Assembly (NCBI GenBank): GCA_028683385.1
Contig: JAQUIJ010000008.1
Coordinates: 186,001-250,000 of the forward strand
Reading direction: 5' to 3'
Length of the DNA: 64,000 bases
Origin: Prolixibacteraceae bacterium
GTDB taxonomy: Bacteria > Bacteroidota > Bacteroidia > Bacteroidales > Prolixibacteraceae
Shown piece after piece: positions 41,003-50,840 of the stretch (the stretch's first letter is position 1; each line of letters opens with the position of its first letter). The position numbers and the translations under genes were made by a program. The notes below the pieces were generated by a model. That model saw only the letters and a program-made list of their open reading frames with translations, did no database searches and was not told the DNA's origin.

Positions 41003-41048
41003 TATTTACAAGTTATATTTAACCGTCTATAAACCAACTAACACTAAC

Positions 41049-41939
41049 ATGGAAAATAATCTTTCACGTCGCATTTTTCTGCAAAGAAGCATTGTCGCTG
41101 GCATTGGCCTTTCTTTGATTGAACCAATGTCTGTATTCGCAAAAGCTAAAGAATCAGGAATGAAATTTGGCTTGGTAACTTATCAGTGGGCGAAAGACTG
41201 GGATTTACCAACACTAATTACTAATTGCGAACAAACCGGTTTTTTAGGTGTCGAACTTCGCACCGGACATGCTCATGGTGTTGAAACATCATTAACTGCC
41301 AATGAACGTTCTGAAGTTAAAAAACGATTTGCCGGTAGCGCTGTTACTTGTCTGGGTTATGGTGCAAATTTTGAATATCACAGTCCCGATCAGGCTATAC
41401 TTCGAAAGAATATTGATCAGACGAAAGAATATATTGTACTTTGTAAAGATATTGGAGCCACGGGTATAAAAGTAAAGCCGAATAACCTGCCAAAAGAAGT
41501 TTCAAAAGAGAAAACAATCGCCCAGATTGCTGCTTCATTGAATGAAGTTGGTCGGTTTGCCAAAGATTATGGACAAATTGTGAGGGTAGAGGTTCATGGG
41601 GAATTAACTCAGGAAATTCCAAACATGAAAGCTATTTTTGAACAGGTGACCGAAAAAAATGTAAAGATGTGCTGGAATTGTAATGACCAGGATTTGTTGC
41701 CACCCGGATTGGAAGCCAACTTCAATTCTGTGAAAAAGTGGTTTGGCGATACTGTCCATGTTCGTGAGTTGAATGTAGGTGAATATCCGTATCAACAACT
41801 CTTTAGTTTATTTGACGAAATGAAATACGATGGCTGGATCTTGCTTGAAGCCCGAATAGAACCTGATGATAAAATCACTGCAATGAAAGAACAGCTCAGG
41901 TTGTTTAATTCAATGCTTTCAAATGCTAAAAAAGGATAA
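41049..41939 (+). CDS. Tat-exported sugar phosphate isomerase/epimerase-like TIM-barrel protein
   Basis: A 296-residue xylose-isomerase-like TIM barrel. The start at 41049 gives a twin-arginine type leader, SRRIFLQRSIVAGIGLSLI, so it is probably periplasmic. Barrel strands are visible as MKFGLVTYQWAKDW, FLGVELRTGHAHG, TCLGYGANFEYHS, GIKVKPNNLP, RVEVHGEL, VKMCWNCND and WILLEARIEPDD, with metal-type Glu, His and Asp residues at strand ends. Proteins of this kind in Bacteroidota often act on sugars or inositols; substrate unknown. A terminator follows. Confidence 0.82.
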   Translation: MENNLSRRIFLQRSIVAGIGLSLIEPMSVFAKAKESGMKFGLVTYQWAKDWDLPTLITNCEQTGFLGVELRTGHAHGVETSLTANERSEVKKRFAGSAVTCLGYGANFEYHSPDQAILRKNIDQTKEYIVLCKDIGATGIKVKPNNLPKEVSKEKTIAQIAASLNEVGRFAKDYGQIVRVEVHGELTQEIPNMKAIFEQVTEKNVKMCWNCNDQDLLPPGLEANFNSVKKWFGDTVHVRELNVGEYPYQQLFSLFDEMKYDGWILLEARIEPDDKITAMKEQLRLFNSMLSNAKKG

Positions 41940-41997: not shown

Positions 41998-42156
41998 ATG
42001 TCTTTGATTTTGGATTAGTCTAAGGCTAGATTTTAGTTTGTTTAGGTTTTATACTCTTTTTTTGAAGTATTTTGGCTATTTCAGAGCAGGAAAATGTAAA
42101 AAATGAATTTTTATGATTTGAAGTGCTGATAAATTCAACAGGTGTAAAAAATATAT

Positions 42157-42217
42157 GCAGTTGTGTTAAGTGATAGTAAATGAGTTAGATAGTTGTTGTT
42201 TGTTGCATTTGTGTTGA
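42157..42217 (+). promoter_or_regulatory. Candidate upstream activator sites
   Basis: GCAGTTGTGTTAA (42157-42169) and GCATTTGTGTTGA (42205-42217) are direct repeats, 11 of 13 identical, 48 bases apart. They lie 90-150 bases upstream of the candidate sigma-54 promoter, the usual place for enhancer sites of NtrC-type activators. The surrounding spacer is very AT-rich, so chance similarity is possible. Confidence 0.3.
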
Positions 42218-42304
42218 ATAAATATACAATATCCTCTATTTTGTTTTTAATCTTGTATTTGTTAAAGTGCAGTATTATAGGTTGTTGTGTTGTGTTTTCT
42301 TCAT

Positions 42305-42320
42305 TGGCACTGGTTTTGAA
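42305..42320 (+). promoter_or_regulatory. Candidate sigma-54 (-24/-12) promoter
   Basis: TGGCAC (42305-42310), five bases, then TTGAA (42316-42320). The consensus is TGGCAC-N5-TTGCA, so the -24 element and spacing are exact and only the C of the -12 GC differs; that position is usually conserved, which lowers confidence. Transcription would start near 42331, 24 bases before the ATG at 42355. The same locus encodes an NtrC-type sigma-54 activator at 48957, its likely regulator. Confidence 0.55.
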
Positions 42321-42354
42321 TTCCCATGTATTATCATTCTAAAAGGGAAAAATC

Positions 42355-44046
42355 ATGAAAACCAGGATCTTTTTAATCGTCACATTTCTTCTATTAAATT
42401 GCCTTTATTCAAATAGTAAAGAAGTTTCTTCAGGAGATTCTAATTCTTTGTCAGGTTCAATAAATGTAGCCACTTCTTCAGAATTATACGACCTGACAAT
42501 GAAGTGGGCAAACGAATACAGCAGGTTGAATCCAAACCAGAAAATCAATGTGAGTAAAGCTTCAGAAAATAATGTTTCAGAAATGATTCGTTCTGGAGAA
42601 TTGGGGATTGTATCTGAAGAGTTCTTTCATAAATTAAACAATTCTTCAACTTGGAGTATGGTTGTCGGCCGGGACGTGATTGTACCGGTTATGAGCTCCA
42701 AAAATCCTCTACTGAACGAGATTTGTCTTAAAGGAATTACAACTAAAGAATTGTCTCAAATTATTTCAAACCCTGAAAATAGAAATTGGGGAGATCTCAT
42801 TGGTAGTGCCCAAAAGATTCCTGTCCATTTTTATACTACCAATGATCAATCAGCTGCGTCGGTATTGCGAAGTTTGAAGAACTTGCATCAATCAATTAGT
42901 AATGGGATTCAATCGTCAAGCACAGCCGAAATGATTCTGGCAATTCAAAACGATCCGAATGCAATTGGCTTTTTCAACCTGACACAAATTTCTGACCAAA
43001 ACAATAAAAACCTTCTGGAAGGATTGAGGTTCGTTCCGATTGATAAAAACGGGAATGGAAAGATTGATTATGTGGAAAACATATATACTAGCATTGAATC
43101 GTTTTCAAGAGGTGTGTGGATTGGAAAATACCCCAAAGTTTTAACATCCAATATTTATTCTGTTTCATCAACGAATCCAAATAATATTTCAGAGGTTGCA
43201 TTTCTGAAATGGGTACTCACTGATGGTCAGAGTTTCTTGAATGAAAATGGTTATAGCGATCTTGTATATAATGAAAGACTTGCCCAATTAGGAAAATTCG
43301 GTCAACCTGATTTTTATGCCACAGTTCCTATGGAACGTACAAGTTCATTAATGTCAGTATTACTATTAATCTTGGTTTTCATCGTAATAACAGGAGTTGT
43401 TGCTGAGCTGGTTTTCAGGGTATTTAGAAAAAGAAGTAAAGTCAGTCATAAAATAACATCAGTCTCAACAGGTGTCTTCAATGAAGAGTCAGTAGTTATT
43501 CCCAAAGGACTCTACTTCGGGAAAACTCACTCCTGGGCATTCATGAAAAAAAATGGGTTGGTGAAAATTGGGATTGATGATTTTCTGCAGCATGTCACCG
43601 GCAAGATAACTAGGGTTGAGTTAAAGCGCGCAGGAGAAACGGTTAAGAAAGGAGAACTCCTGATGTCGATCATTCGGAAAGGAAAACTTCTGAACATTTA
43701 TTCACCCATATCTGGAACAATTACTGAAGTCAATGAAAATCTGGAATCCAATTCTTCACTGCTAAATTCATCTCCATATTCTGAGGGATGGGTATATCTG
43801 ATTGAGCCATTGAATTGGGGACTTGAAATTCAGTATTTATTGATCGCTGAAAAATATAAAGAAGCATTAAAGGATGAATTTACCCGATTAAAAGACTTTT
43901 TCACAACATTGATAAAGGCCAATTCTCATGACTTTGCTTACGTTACAATGCAAGATGGCGGAGAACTTTCTGACCATCCGTTAGCCGAGCTTGAACCTGA
44001 AGTTTGGGATGATTTTCAGACAAAGTTTATTGATACTTCAAAATAA
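42355..44046 (+). CDS. Solute-binding domain / TM / GcvH-like fusion protein
   Basis: An unusual 563-residue fusion. After a signal segment (1-19), residues ~36-310 resemble PstS-type substrate-binding proteins (INVATSSELYDLTMKWANEY, AIGFFNLTQI, AFLKWVLTDGQSFLNENGY). One membrane helix at about 331-353 follows, then a cytoplasmic GcvH/lipoyl-like barrel at ~385-487 (THSWAFMKKNGLVKIGIDDF, YSPISGTITEVNENL, YSEGWVYLIEPLNW) and a ~70-residue C-terminal region with MQDGGELSDHPLAELEPEVW. The position matching the lipoyl Lys of GcvH is Gly443; Lys444 is next to it. The barrel and tail are paralogous to the gene at 46268. It is first in a probable sigma-54 operon. Confidence 0.8.
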   Translation: MKTRIFLIVTFLLLNCLYSNSKEVSSGDSNSLSGSINVATSSELYDLTMKWANEYSRLNPNQKINVSKASENNVSEMIRSGELGIVSEEFFHKLNNSSTWSMVVGRDVIVPVMSSKNPLLNEICLKGITTKELSQIISNPENRNWGDLIGSAQKIPVHFYTTNDQSAASVLRSLKNLHQSISNGIQSSSTAEMILAIQNDPNAIGFFNLTQISDQNNKNLLEGLRFVPIDKNGNGKIDYVENIYTSIESFSRGVWIGKYPKVLTSNIYSVSSTNPNNISEVAFLKWVLTDGQSFLNENGYSDLVYNERLAQLGKFGQPDFYATVPMERTSSLMSVLLLILVFIVITGVVAELVFRVFRKRSKVSHKITSVSTGVFNEESVVIPKGLYFGKTHSWAFMKKNGLVKIGIDDFLQHVTGKITRVELKRAGETVKKGELLMSIIRKGKLLNIYSPISGTITEVNENLESNSSLLNSSPYSEGWVYLIEPLNWGLEIQYLLIAEKYKEALKDEFTRLKDFFTTLIKANSHDFAYVTMQDGGELSDHPLAELEPEVWDDFQTKFIDTSK

Positions 44047-44094
44047 GGCTAAAAATTAATTCTAGGACTTAACTACCTAATAAATAATAAAGCT

Positions 44095-44952
44095 ATGAGT
44101 ATAAATCGAAGAGGCTTTTTTGGCCTGCTGGGTGCAACCGGTATTACACTTGCTATTGGTAAAAATACATTTGCATCGTCTAAGGATAAAAGCAATGTTG
44201 AATTTTCTGGAGTTTTGTATGATTCGACTCGTTGCGTGGGCTGTCGAACTTGCGAATATGAATGTGCAGCGGCACATGGACTTCCCGAACCTTTATCAGA
44301 AGTTGAACCAATTCGCAAGACAAATGAGACCTGCAATACCGTGGTAAATACATTTCAAACTACCAAAGGCGAGGTTTACATCAAGCGTCAGTGCATGCAT
44401 TGCAACGAACCTGCCTGCGATGCTGCTTGCCTGACACAAGCCATGCATAAAAATGAAACAGGACCTGTTACCTGGAATGGCGATAAATGTATGGGATGTC
44501 GCTATTGTATGGTTTCCTGTCCGTTTGATAGCCCCAAGTTTGAATTTCACAGTACAAATCCCAAAATTCAGAAATGTGATATGTGTTTTGATCGGCAAAA
44601 TGCTGGGGAAAAGCCAGTTTGTGTGACAAATTGCCCCAATGACGCGCTAATGTATGGTAAACGTCGTGATTTGATTAAAGAGGCACGCCGGAGAATCTAT
44701 GAAAACCCTGACTTATATACAGATCATATTTATGGTGAACATGAAGTAGGAGGTACCGGATGGCTTTACCTTTCTCCAGTTCCGTTTGAAGAACTTGGTA
44801 TGAATACGAACTTGCAACAATCATCATATCCCTCATTGACAAAAGGATTCCTGTATAGTGTTCCTTCAGTCGATTTATTACTGCCACCACTCTTGCTAGG
44901 CATATATACTGCAACCAAAAACAAACAACATAAAGAAGACGACAATGAATAA
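44095..44952 (+). CDS. Tat-type four-cluster ferredoxin subunit (HybA-like)
   Basis: A 285-residue iron-sulfur protein. A twin-arginine leader (INRRGFFGLLGATGITLAIG) points to export in folded form. Sixteen cysteines make four [4Fe-4S] sites: C47/50/53/57, C100/103/108/112, C132/135/138/142 and C161/164/176/180. A C-terminal hydrophobic segment (SVDLLLPPLLLGIYTA, about 259-275) anchors it, as in HybA of hydrogenase 2. Its stop overlaps the start of the HybB-like gene by 8 bases. In known complexes this subunit passes electrons between a catalytic subunit and the membrane partner; no catalytic subunit is encoded here. Confidence 0.92.
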   Translation: MSINRRGFFGLLGATGITLAIGKNTFASSKDKSNVEFSGVLYDSTRCVGCRTCEYECAAAHGLPEPLSEVEPIRKTNETCNTVVNTFQTTKGEVYIKRQCMHCNEPACDAACLTQAMHKNETGPVTWNGDKCMGCRYCMVSCPFDSPKFEFHSTNPKIQKCDMCFDRQNAGEKPVCVTNCPNDALMYGKRRDLIKEARRRIYENPDLYTDHIYGEHEVGGTGWLYLSPVPFEELGMNTNLQQSSYPSLTKGFLYSVPSVDLLLPPLLLGIYTATKNKQHKEDDNE

Positions 44953-46168
44953 TCGGGCCTACTCTTTAGAAAACGAAAAAGAACATAAATTCAGTTGGAA
45001 ATTTTTGTTTAGCGAATTAAAGCCGAAAGGTAAATGGCTTACCCCATTCAATATAATCTCGATTCCAATTATACTTTTAGGCATTTCCCTAATCGTAATA
45101 CGTTTTTGGAAAGGGTTGGGGTCTATAACTAACCTCACACAGGATGTTCCGTGGGGATTATGGATCGGGTTTGATGTAGTTACTGGTGTTGCATTTGCCG
45201 GGGGTGCATATGTGGTCACTTTTATGGTTTACGTCCTGAATATGAAAAAATATCATCCAATTGTAAGGGTTACTGTACTGAATGGCTTCCTGGCCTACGC
45301 GTTTTATACCGGTGCATTACTGCTCGATTTGGGTCGCCCGTGGCACGTAGTTAATCCTGTAATCGGAAATAGTTATGGAACCAGTTCTGTACTCTTTTTA
45401 GTTGCATGGCATTTTATACTTTACATGCTTGCCGAACTGATCGAGTTTTCGCCTGCTATTGCTGAATGGCTCGGGTCGCGGCACGCACAGCGAATTCTAT
45501 CAGGAATGACCATTGCCGCGGTTATCTTCGGTATTACCTTGTCAACCTTACATCAGTCCGGTTTAGGAGCGCTTTACCTGATGGCCAAAGAAAAAATTCA
45601 TCCTCTGTGGTATTCCGAATTTATACCTATGCTATTTTTGGTTTCGAGTATTTTTGCCGGGCTTTCAATGGTCATTTTTGAGGGATCAATCAGTCATAAA
45701 GTATTTTCCGACCAAATCAGTGAAAAGAATTATCATTCGCAAAATGGTATCATCCATGGACTCTCAAAAATATGTGCAGTTGCCATGTTTGCCTATTTTT
45801 GTTTACAAATTCTTGTTTTTCTTCATACCAAACGATGGGGTTTATTAAATACTCCAATGGGTTATTGGTTTTTGCTTGAAATGATAGGATTTGTGTTTAT
45901 TCCAATGGTTATGTTTTTTTACAGCTATCGTACAAGCAATATTTTCCTGATACGTTTTGCTGCAATTTTAACCATGATTGGAGTGGTACTGAATCGTTTG
46001 AATGTTACGGTGATTGGTTTCAGGTGGGATGCGGCAGTACACTATGTTCCGTCATGGATGGAAATTGTTGTAACTTTAGCCGTCATTTTTACTGAAATCT
46101 GGATATTCAGGTGGGTTATTCGTCGCATGCCGGTTCTCAGGGAATCACCCGCATGGGCCAAAGAATAA
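44945..46168 (+). CDS. HybB/NrfD-like integral membrane subunit
   Basis: A 407-residue protein with about ten membrane helices, of the NrfD/PsrC superfamily and closest in pattern to HybB: DVPWGLWIGFDVVTGVAFAGGAYV, TGALLLDLGRPWHVVNP, STLHQSGLGALYLMAKEKIHPLWYS, and the C-terminal NRLNVTVIGFRWD (quoted in short pieces). This family has no heme and exchanges electrons with menaquinone while moving protons. It overlaps the HybA-like gene by 8 bases and so forms with it a membrane electron-transfer pair. Direction of flow cannot be read from sequence. Confidence 0.92.
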   Translation: MNNRAYSLENEKEHKFSWKFLFSELKPKGKWLTPFNIISIPIILLGISLIVIRFWKGLGSITNLTQDVPWGLWIGFDVVTGVAFAGGAYVVTFMVYVLNMKKYHPIVRVTVLNGFLAYAFYTGALLLDLGRPWHVVNPVIGNSYGTSSVLFLVAWHFILYMLAELIEFSPAIAEWLGSRHAQRILSGMTIAAVIFGITLSTLHQSGLGALYLMAKEKIHPLWYSEFIPMLFLVSSIFAGLSMVIFEGSISHKVFSDQISEKNYHSQNGIIHGLSKICAVAMFAYFCLQILVFLHTKRWGLLNTPMGYWFLLEMIGFVFIPMVMFFYSYRTSNIFLIRFAAILTMIGVVLNRLNVTVIGFRWDAAVHYVPSWMEIVVTLAVIFTEIWIFRWVIRRMPVLRESPAWAKE

Positions 46169-46267
46169 AATTGATAAACCAACAGTTCTCAGAACTGGTT
46201 GAAATATAATAAAAGCAAATTAATCAGCTATCGCAACTATTTAAGCGATGGCGCAAAAATAATAGCA

Positions 46268-47038
46268 ATGGAAGGATTTACTTACAACAACATTTTCGAA
46301 ATGAAAGGGATTGAATATTTGGCGATCGTTGCATTTTTCGCTATTCTGATTCCATTCTGGATATTTTTAAATAAAGAGGTAAAAACGAAGAAGCATACTC
46401 AGAAATCGTTAGGAACACTAGTACCTAATTCGTTGCAAATTCCTCAAGGATTATTTTTTAGCAGATTTCATACCTGGACTCACCTTGAAAGATCTGGAGT
46501 TGCTAAAGTTGGACTCGACGATTTGTTGGTGCATATTACCGGCGAAGTTAAACTAAGCCGACTTTTGGATTCGGGTGAACGGATTAAAAAAGGAGATTTT
46601 CTAGGCGAAATAGTTCAGAATGACAAACGACTCAAAGTTTATTCACCTATTTCCGGAGAAATAATGGAAACAAATTCGTTGCTCACTGAAAATCCTGAAT
46701 TGATGAATGAAGATCCATACTTGAAAGGGTGGATATACAAAATTAAACCCACAAGTTGGGTGGCCGATACTCATTCATATTTTCTGGCCGAGGATGCCAG
46801 CCAATGGGCAAGACAAGAGTTGGCTAGATTCAAAGATTTTTTGAGCGAATCGATTGTGAAATATTCGCCAGATCCTTCATCTGTAGTTTTGCAAGATGGT
46901 GGCGAATTGCGTGATCAAGTGCTTTCAGAACTTTCAAACGAGATCTGGCAGGATTTCCAACAAGAATTTATGAGTAAAAAAGTATTATGCCGACGAAAAA
47001 ACTGTTTTCGGGAACCGGAGAAGTTGAAAAATGATTGA
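46268..47038 (+). CDS. Membrane-tethered GcvH-like protein
   Basis: A 256-residue protein: one membrane helix at about 16-34, a linker, a GcvH-like barrel at ~60-163 (HTWTHLERSGVAKVGLDDLL, RIKKGDFLGEIVQNDKRLKV, YSPISGEIMETNSLL, YLKGWIYKIKPTSW) and a C-terminal tail with LQDGGELRDQVLSELSNEIW. Barrel and tail are paralogous to the C-terminal half of the protein at 42355. The residue matching the GcvH lipoyl Lys is Asp119, with Lys120 beside it. I start at ATG 46268; a TTG frame from 46199 adds residues without character. It ends the putative operon, before a strong terminator. Confidence 0.82.
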   Translation: MEGFTYNNIFEMKGIEYLAIVAFFAILIPFWIFLNKEVKTKKHTQKSLGTLVPNSLQIPQGLFFSRFHTWTHLERSGVAKVGLDDLLVHITGEVKLSRLLDSGERIKKGDFLGEIVQNDKRLKVYSPISGEIMETNSLLTENPELMNEDPYLKGWIYKIKPTSWVADTHSYFLAEDASQWARQELARFKDFLSESIVKYSPDPSSVVLQDGGELRDQVLSELSNEIWQDFQQEFMSKKVLCRRKNCFREPEKLKND

Positions 47039-47096
47039 TTTTTCGATGAATTTGTCAATCTAAAAATTCTAAATGATTTATAATAAGTTGTTTGGT

Positions 47097-47133
47097 AAGA
47101 AAGCGATGAGAGAAATCATCGCTTTCTTAATTT
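47097..47133 (+). terminator. Strong Rho-independent terminator
   Basis: AAGAAAGCGATGA (47097-47109) pairs perfectly with TCATCGCTTTCTT (47116-47128), a 13-bp stem with loop GAGAAA, followed by AATTTTT. It closes the GcvH-like/HybAB-like operon and separates it from the two-component genes. Confidence 0.9.
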
Positions 47134-47270
47134 TTACTTCTGTGAATGAGTTTTATAGTCATTAAACATACAATTCACTGAAACAAAATCGAATAGTTGA
47201 GGCTGAATTTAAAATTTTGAGACTAAATTAGCATTCAGTAAAATGGCTTAAGAATTTAATCCTATTTTTC

Positions 47271-48944
47271 ATGAATTGGTTTAAAAGAGTAGCAAAAAAG
47301 AATATTGCAGGGAGTCCAATAATTAGTCATTATGTGAAATTTCGCTCTTCAATATATGGGAGAGTTGTTTTTATAATTGCTATTTTATCTGTTTTCCTTT
47401 TTGTATCATTCAACATTATTTTTCAGTCGGTTAACGAACAATATCTGAATACAATTATTCGTCAGAGCGGTAATAATATTGGCTCAATTGTAGAAGGAGC
47501 GTTGTATCATTCGATGCGTCAAAACGATAAAGGAGCCCTTCAGAACACCCTTGATATTATTAATACGCTGCCAGGAATCGATGAGGTAAATATGTACGAT
47601 AGTAACGATAGTCTGGTTTACTCCTCGTTTGCTGAGGATACGGACAAGAGTCATAGCGATCCGAATTGTATAAGTTGTCACACAAATATCCGGTCATTGT
47701 TTCCAGGCTTAGAGAAGTCGTATAAAATTATCGATATAAACACGGATTGTTTGATGAATAAAAACGATAATGGTAGCCGGCATTTACTCATTCGCTCGCC
47801 AATTCTGAACGAAAGATCGTGTTATGTCAGCTCTTGTCATTTTCATCAGGAGTCCGATACTCTTTTGGGTTCGCTCGTCATCAAAATCCCACTTGAAGCA
47901 CAGGACCAGGCCATTCAAAAATCATCAACCGAGTTTTTCTTTTTGGCTATTTTGGCAACCATGCTGCTTGCTTCATTTTTGTTACTCTTCACCCGTAAGA
48001 AAATTAAGAATCCGTTGAATGAATTGGTTAAGGTTAGCGTTGCAGTAGCCAGTGGCGATAAAAGTACCCGCCTTGAAATAAAACCTAACCAACTGGACGA
48101 TATGCGGGTGGTTTCCGAAGCATTTAACGACATGTTGGATAATTTACAAACTGCAACTGTTGAGTTGGAAAACTGGTCGCAGCAATTGGAATATAAAGTT
48201 CAGAAAAAGTCGGAGGAACTGGGTGCCGCTCAGAATGAACTGATGCACGTTGAACGATTGGCTTCTTTGGGAAAATTATCATCTTCTGTAGCGCACGAAA
48301 TCAATAATCCTTTATCCGGAATTTTGATTTACACCAAATTGCTTTTGAAACAGGTAGGCAATCCGGAACTGTATGCCTCCAAACGAGAGTCGATGCTCAA
48401 ACATTTACGATTGATTGAATCGGAAACAAAGCGTTGCGGCGACATTGTAAAAGGATTGCTTGATTTTTCGAGGAAAGATCAGAATGACTTTGAACCTAAA
48501 CATTTACATGAAATATTGAAGGAAACTTATGAGTTAATGACTCACCCGATCAAAATTGCTGACATCAAATTTGAATACGATTTTGCAGCCACTTCAGACC
48601 TGATTTATTGTAATCCAAACCAGATTAAACAGGCCTGTATTGCGATTCTGGTAAATGCTTCTGAAGCGATTAAGGAAAACGGTGAAATCACGATCAGGAC
48701 CAAAAATTTGGATGAGGAAACCATTTGTATTGATATTTCAGACAATGGATCGGGTATTGCGGAAGAAGACATTCCCCATATTTTCGAGCCATTTTTCTCG
48801 ACAAAACAAGTAGTCAGCGGCATTGGATTAGGTCTTGCGATTGTTCATGGCATTATTCAAAACCATAAAGGTAAAATTCAGGTAAATTCCGAGTTGGGCC
48901 GGGGAACAACTATTTCAGTAAATTTACCATTGATAAAAAGTTAA
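47271..48944 (+). CDS. Histidine kinase with heme-c-type motif in its sensor domain
   Basis: A 557-residue membrane kinase. TM1 lies at about 33-51 and TM2 at 221-241, enclosing a periplasmic domain of ~170 residues. That domain holds CISCH at 133-137, an exact CxxCH heme-c attachment motif, and CYVSSCH at 184-190, a CX4CH variant. HAMP follows (about 242-295), then HisKA with phospho-acceptor H342 in [12 protein letters not shown] and a HATPase domain ([21 protein letters not shown]). It is followed 12 bases later by the NtrC-type regulator, its evident partner. The heme motif suggests redox or gas sensing; covalent heme is inferred, not shown. Confidence 0.93.
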
Positions 48945-48956
48945 GGAGGTTGAAGA

Positions 48957-50300
48957 ATGGCAAAAAAGATTTCGATATTGATCGTTGATGATGAAGAATC
49001 AGTGAGAGATTCCTTATACAATTGGTTTCTGGAAGATGGATTTCGCGTTGAATGTGCTGAAAACGCCAAAAGAGCGCTGACAATTCTCGAATCTGACCAG
49101 TTTGACATCATTCTTGCAGACATTAAAATGCCAGGAATGGACGGTCTTGAAATGCTCCGGAGAATTAAATCAATTAAACCTGATTCAATTGTCATTGTTA
49201 TGACAGCCTTCGCAACTGTAGATACAGCCGTAAAGGCACTCAAAGATGGCGCTTATGATTATGTAACGAAACCTTTTGACCCTGATGATTTGACCCATTT
49301 GATTCGAAACGCCACCAAACAAATCGCTCTGGTTGAAGAAAATGAAACCTTAAAGCAAAAGGTAACTTCACTCGAAAATGTGGAAGATCTGATCGGAAAG
49401 AGTGAGGCCATGAAAAACGTATTGAAGCAAGTTGAGAGTGTGGCTCAAACCAATTCTTCTGTTATTATTACCGGCGAAAGTGGTACTGGGAAGGAGCTTA
49501 TTGCCCGTGCTATTCATGCCAATTCTCCACGTAAATTTTTCCCTTTTGTGAGTGTTCATTGTGGCGCATTAACCGAAAGTTTACTCGAAAGTGAATTGTT
49601 CGGTCACGAAAAGGGAGCGTTTACTGGCGCCATGTACAATCGCAAAGGTCGGTTCGAGATGGCCGACAGTGGTTCCATATTTTTAGACGAAATAGCAACG
49701 ATTTCAACAAAAATGCAGGTTGAATTGCTTCGGGTTCTGGAATCAAAAACATTTATGCGTGTCGGTGGAAATAAGGAAATTAGTTCCGATTTCAGGGTCA
49801 TTTGTGCTACCAACAAAGATTTGAAAAGCATGGTTGAAAAGGGAACTTTCCGTGAAGATCTTTTTTACCGTTTAAATGTAGTAAACATCCAAATTCCGCC
49901 TTTGCGCGATCGCAAAGATGATATCCCATTATTGGTCAATTACTTTATAAACAAGTATTGTACATCAATGAATAAACCTCCTGCATCAATCGACCAGGCA
50001 GCGTTAAATCGAATTCAGGAGTTTAATTTCCCTGGAAATATCCGCGAACTTGAAAACATGATCGAACGAGCCATTGTTGTCGGAAATGGGAAAAAAATAA
50101 CGTTGAAAGATCTTCCGTTGAATAAGACTTTTGTAAGTAATTCAGCCGAAAGTCTCGACGATTTTGAGCGGGCATTTATACTTCAGATTCTTACTAAATA
50201 CGATTGGAATATTTCGCGTACTGCCCGGGCACTGAAAGTTGACCGTGTAACTCTTTACAACAAAATCAAGAAATACGATTTAAAATTGGCAGATCAATAA
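48957..50300 (+). CDS. NtrC family sigma-54-dependent response regulator
   Basis: A 447-residue three-domain activator. Receiver: DDEES acidic pair D11-D12, phospho-acceptor D55, T83 and K105. AAA+ domain: Walker A GESGTGKE (173-180), the sigma-54 contact loop GAFTGA (220-225), Walker B SIFLDEIA. C-terminal Fis-type helix-turn-helix: NISRTARALKVDRVTLYNKI. A strong Shine-Dalgarno (AAGGAGGT, 48943-48950) overlaps the kinase stop, so kinase and regulator are tightly coupled. Its most likely target is the candidate -24/-12 promoter at 42305. Confidence 0.95.
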   Translation: MAKKISILIVDDEESVRDSLYNWFLEDGFRVECAENAKRALTILESDQFDIILADIKMPGMDGLEMLRRIKSIKPDSIVIVMTAFATVDTAVKALKDGAYDYVTKPFDPDDLTHLIRNATKQIALVEENETLKQKVTSLENVEDLIGKSEAMKNVLKQVESVAQTNSSVIITGESGTGKELIARAIHANSPRKFFPFVSVHCGALTESLLESELFGHEKGAFTGAMYNRKGRFEMADSGSIFLDEIATISTKMQVELLRVLESKTFMRVGGNKEISSDFRVICATNKDLKSMVEKGTFREDLFYRLNVVNIQIPPLRDRKDDIPLLVNYFINKYCTSMNKPPASIDQAALNRIQEFNFPGNIRELENMIERAIVVGNGKKITLKDLPLNKTFVSNSAESLDDFERAFILQILTKYDWNISRTARALKVDRVTLYNKIKKYDLKLADQ

Positions 50301-50309
50301 AGTTGCCAA

Positions 50310-50840
50310 ATGAAACTGCAAACCATTACTTTAGTTTCGTTCGGTTTCTTCGAAAAAGACATTTTAGAGAAGACTGCTGAAGCTGTGATTGAGGAGTATC
50401 ACAGCTCTGTCGTTATTAAAGATGGGCATTTGGATTTAAGTGAATATTACGATGCACCCCGTAGACAATATGATGCGAATACATTACTGAAGCAGGTTCA
50501 TTCCATGTCGTTTCCTGAATCGGATAAGAACCTAGGGATATTTAATGTTGATCTTTTTATTCCGATTTTGACCTTTATATTTGGACAAGCTTTTTTGGGC
50601 GGGCAAACTGGTATCGCTTCACTTTACAGGCTTAGTAATGAGCGGTATGGTATGGTTCATGACGAACAATTGATGCTTGAACGGTTCAAAAAAGAGGTTA
50701 TACACGAACTTGGCCATATGTTTGGTTTAATTCACTGTTTAAGTCCGACATGTGTTATGCGTTCGAGTACTTATGTTGAAGACATTGATCAGAAGAGCGT
50801 GCATCTCTGCCGCGATTGCAAGTCTAAATTGGACATTTGA
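50310..50840 (+). CDS. Archaemetzincin-like zinc metalloprotease
   Basis: A 176-residue protein with the full archaemetzincin signature: HELGHMFGLIHC at 132-143 (HExxHxxGxxH/C-type metzincin helix), then x4-C-V-M at 148-150 and CRDC at 167-170, which in known members bind a second zinc. No signal peptide, so cytoplasmic. It starts 9 bases after the regulator gene and is probably co-transcribed with the kinase-regulator pair. Substrates of bacterial archaemetzincins are unknown; the linkage to a sigma-54 redox circuit is a possible lead. Confidence 0.92.
   Translation: MKLQTITLVSFGFFEKDILEKTAEAVIEEYHSSVVIKDGHLDLSEYYDAPRRQYDANTLLKQVHSMSFPESDKNLGIFNVDLFIPILTFIFGQAFLGGQTGIASLYRLSNERYGMVHDEQLMLERFKKEVIHELGHMFGLIHCLSPTCVMRSSTYVEDIDQKSVHLCRDCKSKLDI

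Follow-up and report, generated by a model that had tools for sequence, protein, structure and literature searches.

A cassette of seven genes, at positions 42355-50840 of a 64,000-nucleotide stretch of contig JAQUIJ010000008.1 (the window) from the 5.9 Mb genome of a Prolixibacteraceae bacterium (G000), forms a conserved unit of the Bacteroidota. We read this cassette, with a probability of about 0.5, as a sensor-controlled membrane electron-transfer unit, that is, a relay between the quinone pool and the periplasm that would be controlled by a heme kinase. The combination joined here consists of a hydrogenase-free pair of the HmcBC type, membrane-anchored H-protein barrels that lack the lipoyl lysine, a kinase with two heme motifs and an archaemetzincin. 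The seven genes had been named in an earlier interpretation made from the letters of the window alone (the sequence-only reading), and their positions and domains were borne out by open reading frame (ORF) and profile checks.

The first gene product, P1 (42355-44046, +), contains a signal peptide, a PstS-derived periplasmic domain (PBP_like_2, 1e-11), one transmembrane (TM) segment (residues 332-350), a cytoplasmic GcvH-like domain (residues 386-507; GCV_H, 3.1e-25) and a conserved tail. It is followed by P2 (44095-44952, +), an HmcB/HybA-like ferredoxin that, by profile and hydropathy, has a twin-arginine translocation (Tat) motif, a Fer4_11 match (2.4e-20) and a C-terminal hydrophobic tail predicted to anchor it. 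P3 (44945-46168, +) is an HmcC/HybB/NrfD-like membrane subunit (NrfD, 1.8e-15) with ten TM segments predicted from hydropathy and 20 Lys/Arg residues on the N-terminal side versus 9. A TM segment, a cytoplasmic GcvH-like domain (GCV_H, 1.2e-22) and a tail make up P4 (46268-47038, +); comparison of relatives placed its conserved start at ATG 46268 and not at TTG 46199, where the listed ORF begins. The gap between P4 and the kinase gene holds a hairpin that resembles an intrinsic terminator (47096-47129, +; 14 pairs, T-rich tail), as claimed earlier, although such sites as a class (7 in the window versus 8.0 in shuffles) are not in excess. Beyond it lie P5 (47271-48944, +), a sensor kinase with a periplasmic Cache-like domain, HAMP, HisKA and HATPase; P6 (48957-50300, +), an NtrC-type response regulator with receiver (REC), sigma-54 AAA+ (Sigma54_activat, 4.5e-71; GAFTGA motif) and Fis helix-turn-helix domains; and P7 (50310-50840, +), an archaemetzincin (M54) with an intact HExxHxxGxxHC motif.

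Conservation of the cassette was analysed in loci taken from relatives (20 loci) and from 80 of the 230 matches of a profile search of genome contigs, which were reduced to 91 unique loci by the end of P1. Record titles of the contig-search loci were Bacteroidetes, Bacteroidales, Prolixibacteraceae and the like, with the sole exception of L114, titled Alphaproteobacteria, which is presumably a mislabelled bin. We scored as complete the order P1-P2-P3-P4-kinase-regulator-archaemetzincin on one strand, allowing a doubled kinase and ignoring unrelated ORFs in between. P1-type fusions and HybA/HybB-like genes recurred together as a conserved neighbourhood, with the complete order in 55 of the 91 loci, while 8 showed a reduced form (P1-kinase-regulator-archaemetzincin without P2-P4) and 28 some other arrangement. 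Most of these irregular loci (22/28) stop less than 6 kb from P1, and one among them, L063, has room for a kinase, though none was seen. In L033 and L079 only P1-P4 were found and the rest of the cassette is missing; the kinase-regulator-archaemetzincin group is placed upstream instead in L073, and L042 has a kinase after which regulator and archaemetzincin were not found. P2 went uncalled in L031 and L048 as a result of ORF-picking misses, in L031 apparently through overlap.

The sequence-only reading had linked the cassette to sigma-54. A scan of the window alone did not uphold this (6 sites versus 4.99 expected, not above chance), but comparison of loci did. A strict element, TGGCAY-N5-TTG(A/C) located 30-140 bp 5' of the P1 start, precedes P1 in 77/97 loci, against a mean of 0.075 and a maximum of 1 in 200 shuffles, and 88 of the 97 upstream stretches are mutually distinct. 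The copy in the window, TGGCACTGGTTTTGA (42305-42319, +; TGGCAC-N5-TTGA), lies 50 bp 5' of P1. Nearly all loci have TTGA as the -12 part, where the textbook form is TTGC. In the 300 bp upstream of each of 74 kinase genes, no strict site was found. The presence of the site before P1 and its absence before the kinases make it most likely that the regulator controls P1-P4 but not its own expression. Together with the NtrC-type GAFTGA regulator in the locus, the conserved element supports the earlier proposal of a self-contained circuit under sigma-54.

A 21-bp palindrome, AGTGTTGAATnATTCAACACT, accompanies the sigma-54 site, with its best copy at -84 to -86 from that site in 53/77 loci and further copies near -173, -155 and -61 across loci. 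Two putative regulator sites are found in the window, AGTGCTGATAAATTCAACAGG (42122-42142, centre -173) and TGTGTTGAATAAATATACAAT (42210-42230, centre -85), both of them weak copies that match 15/20 scored positions of the consensus. A copy near the position of the former recurs in many related loci; this site falls outside the segment delimited by the sequence-only reading, which began at 42157. The palindromes are candidate binding sites for P6, and the enhancer-like array that they form at this promoter is unusually regular. A scan of 61 genomes for a half-palindrome with a sigma-54 site recovered 11 P1 promoters and scattered matches, among them four pairs of look-alikes in two genomes each; a reversed control pattern also matched. 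A strict palindrome scan with one mismatch allowed gave nine places in eight genomes. As none of these was a P1 promoter, other targets could have escaped so strict a scan.

An electron-transfer function of the HmcBC/HybAB type, as proposed from the sequence, is supported by the curated matches of P2 and P3. The best of these are HmcB (NF045715) for P2, at 328.9 bits against a cut-off of 420, and HmcC (NF045714) for P3, at 397.3 bits against 550; HybA (220.3/263 bits) and HybB (252.5/450 bits) come second, again below the equivalog cut-offs. The HmcC cut-off was exceeded in none of 395 genomes of the phylum. Like the Hmc complex of Desulfovibrio, the cassette combines a tail-anchored ferredoxin with an NrfD-like protein in the absence of a hydrogenase subunit, and a multiheme cytochrome is also present in some sister loci. 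It differs from Hmc in that the window operon lacks HmcA, D, E and F and has GcvH-like subunits and its own kinase and regulator instead. P2 and P3 also belong to the same protein families as HybA and HybB of hydrogenase-2, although no hydrogenase adjoins them. The sequence-only reading held that HybA/HybB pairs normally serve a hydrogenase or molybdoenzyme and noted that none is present here. The absence was confirmed, but the generalisation is weakened by published hydrogenase-free pairs, namely Hmc and the tail-anchored ferredoxin/HybB-like quinol oxidase modules (Gallego-Parrilla, 2024; PMC10924467). In the sections of that paper available, these modules are described as two-gene pairs without a catalytic subunit, usually found with c-type cytochromes, and a form without a signal peptide also exists. 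No GcvH-like, PstS-like or archaemetzincin partner is named in those sections, and the only histidine kinase and sigma-54 regulator there belong to flanking genes depicted as unrelated. The P2-P3 core is thus already known, and it is the surrounding set of GcvH-like proteins, PstS-derived domain, heme kinase and archaemetzincin that is new. In agreement with the earlier statement that no system with this exact set has been described, we found none in the open-access literature, nor a paper combining NrfD and GcvH; subscription journals fall mostly outside that coverage.

The CxxCH motif reported earlier in the kinase sensor domain is present, and a second motif, CxxxxCHxH, was also found. CxxCH occurs in 81/81 close kinase rows and CxxxxCHxH in 80/81 (some rows represent the same genome twice), and nine distant kinases shown in the kinase alignment carry both. 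A model of the sensor domain, with a predicted local distance difference test (pLDDT) score of 72, matched the heme-c domain GSU0935 in Foldseek (E 4.4e-4, rank 4). The kinase was compared with the sCache_heme sensors (DUF3365/Tll0287), a heme-c Cache family with properties of nitric oxide (NO) sensors when fused to signalling modules, according to the available part of PMC12889525. As far as that part goes, the window kinase resembles them in CxxCH and, by a fold match of moderate confidence, in a predicted periplasmic Cache-like fold, and differs in the second motif. A sister kinase (L138) showed a weak DUF3365/Tll0287 match (0.022).

P7 exceeds the curated cut-off of the archaemetzincin family NF033823 (163.5 bits, cut-off 145), and HExxHxxGxxHC is kept in 84/85 rows; P7 is distinguished by its place in a two-component operon. 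Among 61 relatives, an archaemetzincin is present in 25/25 with a full P1 versus 1/36 others (Fisher 3.0e-16). The lone genome among the 36 holds a P1 fragment (G008), so that 26/26 relatives with an archaemetzincin also have P1, one as a fragment. P1/P4 pieces or a split P1 occur without an archaemetzincin in G004, G007 and G053. The biology of this family is very little known, according to the accessible part of PMC3427221, and the cassette gives it a testable genetic partner.

Relatives of the cassette are found more widely in the phylum. In the 395 genomes an HmcC-like gene is present in 59 and a GcvH-like match (A2 profile) in 59, with both in 52 (Fisher 2.6e-49); at 1e-20 this profile also catches some short GcvH proteins of ordinary length. 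A GcvH-like gene lies within 12 kb of 55 of the 65 HmcC genes. We inspected 20 sister loci and 12 more, ten of the 12 having been picked for an HmcC gene without a nearby GcvH-like match. The commonest form (variant B, 12/20) encodes one or more GcvH-like proteins, a ferredoxin, HmcC, a further GcvH-like protein, a heme kinase, an NtrC-type regulator and an archaemetzincin. This further GcvH-like protein often has a Cys-rich N-terminus, and a tetraheme cytochrome lies inside the set in two cases. A second form (variant C, 5/20; L133-L137) encodes HmcB, HmcC, a 13-heme cytochrome (5-heme in L136), a heme kinase and receiver proteins of the REC-GcvH and TM-REC-GcvH kinds; L135 additionally holds part of the variant B set. 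Cytochromes with 14, 16 and 19 CxxCH motifs are encoded nearby in L133 and L137, and those beside L184 have 16 and 19. The presence of multiheme cytochromes beside loci with HmcB, HmcC and a heme kinase suggests a possible role in extracellular electron transfer. Of the other three among the 20, L123 is truncated by the end of its contig, L128 shows two GcvH-like genes close to such an end, and L132 has a GcvH-like gene, a ferredoxin and HmcC without a kinase. Among the 12 extra loci, HmcB, HmcC and a cytochrome stand alone in L174-L176, L178 and L179.

We propose the following mechanism for the electron-transfer unit. The hemes of the kinase would signal either the redox conditions in the periplasm or a small ligand, for example NO, and P6 would then bind the palindromes and switch on P1-P4. 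Through P2 and P3, electrons would move between menaquinone and a partner in the periplasm whose gene lies outside the cassette, in the manner of HmcB/HmcC and HybA/HybB. A c-type cytochrome is the probable partner, given that such a gene adjoins the pair in some sister loci. P1 and P4 may provide non-lipoylated barrels of the H-protein fold on the cytoplasmic face for docking or signalling rather than as chemical carriers, and the PstS-derived domain of P1 may have lost phosphate and now serve in binding or sensing something else. A protein of the module, or the regulator, could be trimmed by the archaemetzincin.

Several observations weigh against this interpretation. The variant B ferredoxins (L119-L138) lack a Tat motif while keeping a weak C-terminal hydrophobic tail, which implies that the membrane side of the ferredoxin is not uniform; 14 of the 15 ferredoxin rows without the motif come from distant loci. 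The window kinase has no DUF3365/Tll0287 (sCache_heme) Pfam match, and the best Foldseek matches of its sensor model, itself of pLDDT 72, are Cache-like domains of WalK. WalK domains are not known to carry heme c. The strict sigma-54 site is missing from 20/97 loci, including the nearest relative, L020; 17 of these, L020 among them, have a site that departs from the strict form by a single change, usually TTGG in place of TTGA, in a post hoc and uncontrolled count. The link between regulator and palindromes is drawn from position alone, and the scans for other targets are insensitive. Across the 395 genomes, 21 of 53 with an archaemetzincin lack an HmcC-like gene, which shows that the protease is not tied to the pair throughout the phylum (19 of the 21 belong to the class of the window; their open frames are mostly about 200-350 residues long, and all but one score under the family cut-off). 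Finally, the reduced loci (8/91) keep P1, kinase, regulator and protease but not P2-P4, and seven of these eight genomes have no HmcC-like gene, so electron transfer cannot be the whole role.

The reduced loci also favour the strongest alternative, a possible though less probable one, in which the cassette is primarily a signalling device. Its core would be P1, the heme kinase, the regulator and the archaemetzincin, with the GcvH-like domain as adaptor or output, the PstS-like domain as accessory sensor and P2-P4 as an optional redox input, feeding or reading the quinone pool. A further pointer to signalling, next to the reduced loci, comes from the receiver-GcvH fusions of the sister loci, which end in GcvH-like instead of DNA-binding domains. 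The receiver acid pair, phospho-accepting Asp and Lys are kept in 15/16 rows, or 13/14 when two pairs that represent the same locus fetched twice (the place of L136 is that of L185) are counted once. The exception, L177 (745-1845, -), is a TM-REC-GcvH protein with a degenerate receiver, and the 13.5 kb examined there showed no kinase. What this alternative explains less well is that most untruncated loci have P2-P4 behind the same promoter, and that P2 and P3, both electron-transfer proteins, are well conserved.

A tentative idea, which we consider possible rather than probable, is that two-component systems have taken over the H-protein fold, in non-lipoylated form, as an output and adaptor domain that gates the quinone-periplasm pair. 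The kinase would act through sigma-54 transcription in the window and, in the sister loci with REC-GcvH and TM-REC-GcvH proteins, by direct phosphorylation of the barrel subunits. If the fusions act as they suggest, electron flow would be controlled by phosphorylating the membrane complex itself, and this, if true, would exceed a mere variation on the known P2-P3 core.

An enzyme encoded elsewhere, either a PhsA-type molybdoenzyme or a hydrogenase, might be served by P2-P3, with the cassette as its membrane anchor and regulator; we regard this as unlikely. Flanks of up to 10 kb were surveyed, many contigs ending early. Molybdopterin enzymes in the flanks were screened with one PhsA-like seed, and other enzyme families were covered by clustering of flanking ORFs and by PF00374 and PF00384 searches in the 61 genomes. 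Clustering gave no family in more than 9/91 loci. A PhsA-like gene was present in the flanks of 3/91 loci (L026, L028 and L031), in an operon of the same orientation that immediately precedes P1; these are the same three places where PF00384 matched within 6 kb of P1 (genomes G010, G020 and G022). The L028 operon includes two Sulf_transp halves and two rhodanese proteins. It also has its own NrfD, as the L031 operon has its own ferredoxin, and both speak against a need for P2-P3. PF00384 was found in 22/25 relatives with full P1, and also in 23/36 others, so molybdopterin enzymes are common without P1 as well. The hydrogenase family PF00374 had no match in G000; it was present in 9/61 relatives, never on a contig with P1, and 3/25 relatives with full P1 have it on other contigs. 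Within the flanks and enzyme families covered, a regularly joining catalytic subunit is rejected on these counts, in line with the sequence-only reading.

The electron-transfer interpretation assigns no chemistry to the GcvH-like barrels, for which a carrier function had been suggested earlier. In a simple hydropathy analysis, the TM segment that precedes these domains in P1 and P4 has Lys/Arg just behind it, which places the domains in the cytoplasm by the positive-inside rule. In a model of P1 (pLDDT 75), the periplasmic part matched PstS folds and the GcvH-like domain matched the H-protein 1onl (TMt 0.91; 38% identity in the structural alignment), and this domain is thus predicted to have the barrel-sandwich fold of the glycine cleavage H-protein. 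P1 and P4 differ from that protein in having a TM anchor and an extra conserved tail, and GcvH-like domains are here joined to PstS-like or receiver domains. In the alignment column of the lipoyl lysine, 88/88 P1 sequences have Gly and the 63 P4 sequences have Gly (57), Asp (5) or Asn (1), while the separate, ordinary GcvH of the host genome keeps its Lys; two of 50 distant GcvH-like domains have Lys in this column (1/25 and 1/16 in subsets). An ordinary lipoyl carrier is thereby ruled out for P1 and P4, and the earlier suggestion of a carrier is weakened. That the barrels carry a lipoyl, sulfur or acyl group across a membrane-linked redox step, for which the lipoate-binding proteins of sulfur oxidation offer a parallel, is very unlikely despite the fold and the sulfur genes that adjoin the cassette in a few genomes, because the column lacks Lys throughout in P1 and P4 and such neighbours are rare. 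A Lys one residue past the usual site is invariant in 37 aligned P1 sequences, which leaves slight room for some other modification, but this Lys varies in P4.

The periplasmic domain of P1 was compared with proteins of the same group and is a relative of Bacteroidota PstS with the same fold; transporter neighbours of the comparison PstS genes were recognised by eye. The solute-binding-protein relationship claimed earlier therefore holds, but not a role as an ordinary solute receptor. P1 scores 49.6 bits against TIGR02136 (cut-off 206.6), and the cassette has no ABC transporter gene. The motifs SGAFALYP, GGAGKGM and RSDACG of five PstS proteins, which we take to be the phosphate-binding loops, are absent from the 14 P1 sequences aligned with them. 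On the loss of these loops, an active phosphate receptor is rejected. An EF-hand-like loop (D230, N232, N234, D238 and E241) is invariant in 37 aligned P1 sequences. Mean identity to the window P1 in 36 sequences was 46.6% for the periplasmic domain versus 63.7% for the GcvH-like domain, indicating that the periplasmic domain changes faster.

A gene for a xylose-isomerase-like TIM barrel lies upstream of P1 (window 41046-41939) and is found in only 5/91 loci, and so is not part of the unit. Genes that resemble those for sulfide-quinone reductase, cysteine desulfurase and DsrE-type proteins, recognised by eye from sequence starts, follow the cassette in L021 (15236-19477). Named or cultured carriers of the cassette are Sunxiuqinia dokdonensis (L116), Bacteroidales bacterium 6E (L093) and Tangfeifania diversioriginum (L113), the last with P1-P4 present and the kinase group absent. 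The S. dokdonensis locus (strain DH1) is complete in order, and its sigma-54 site differs from the strict form by one change. Two kinases each are encoded in L067 and L112, and L025 contains a tandem pair of kinases and two archaemetzincin genes, the second of them shorter, in one cassette.

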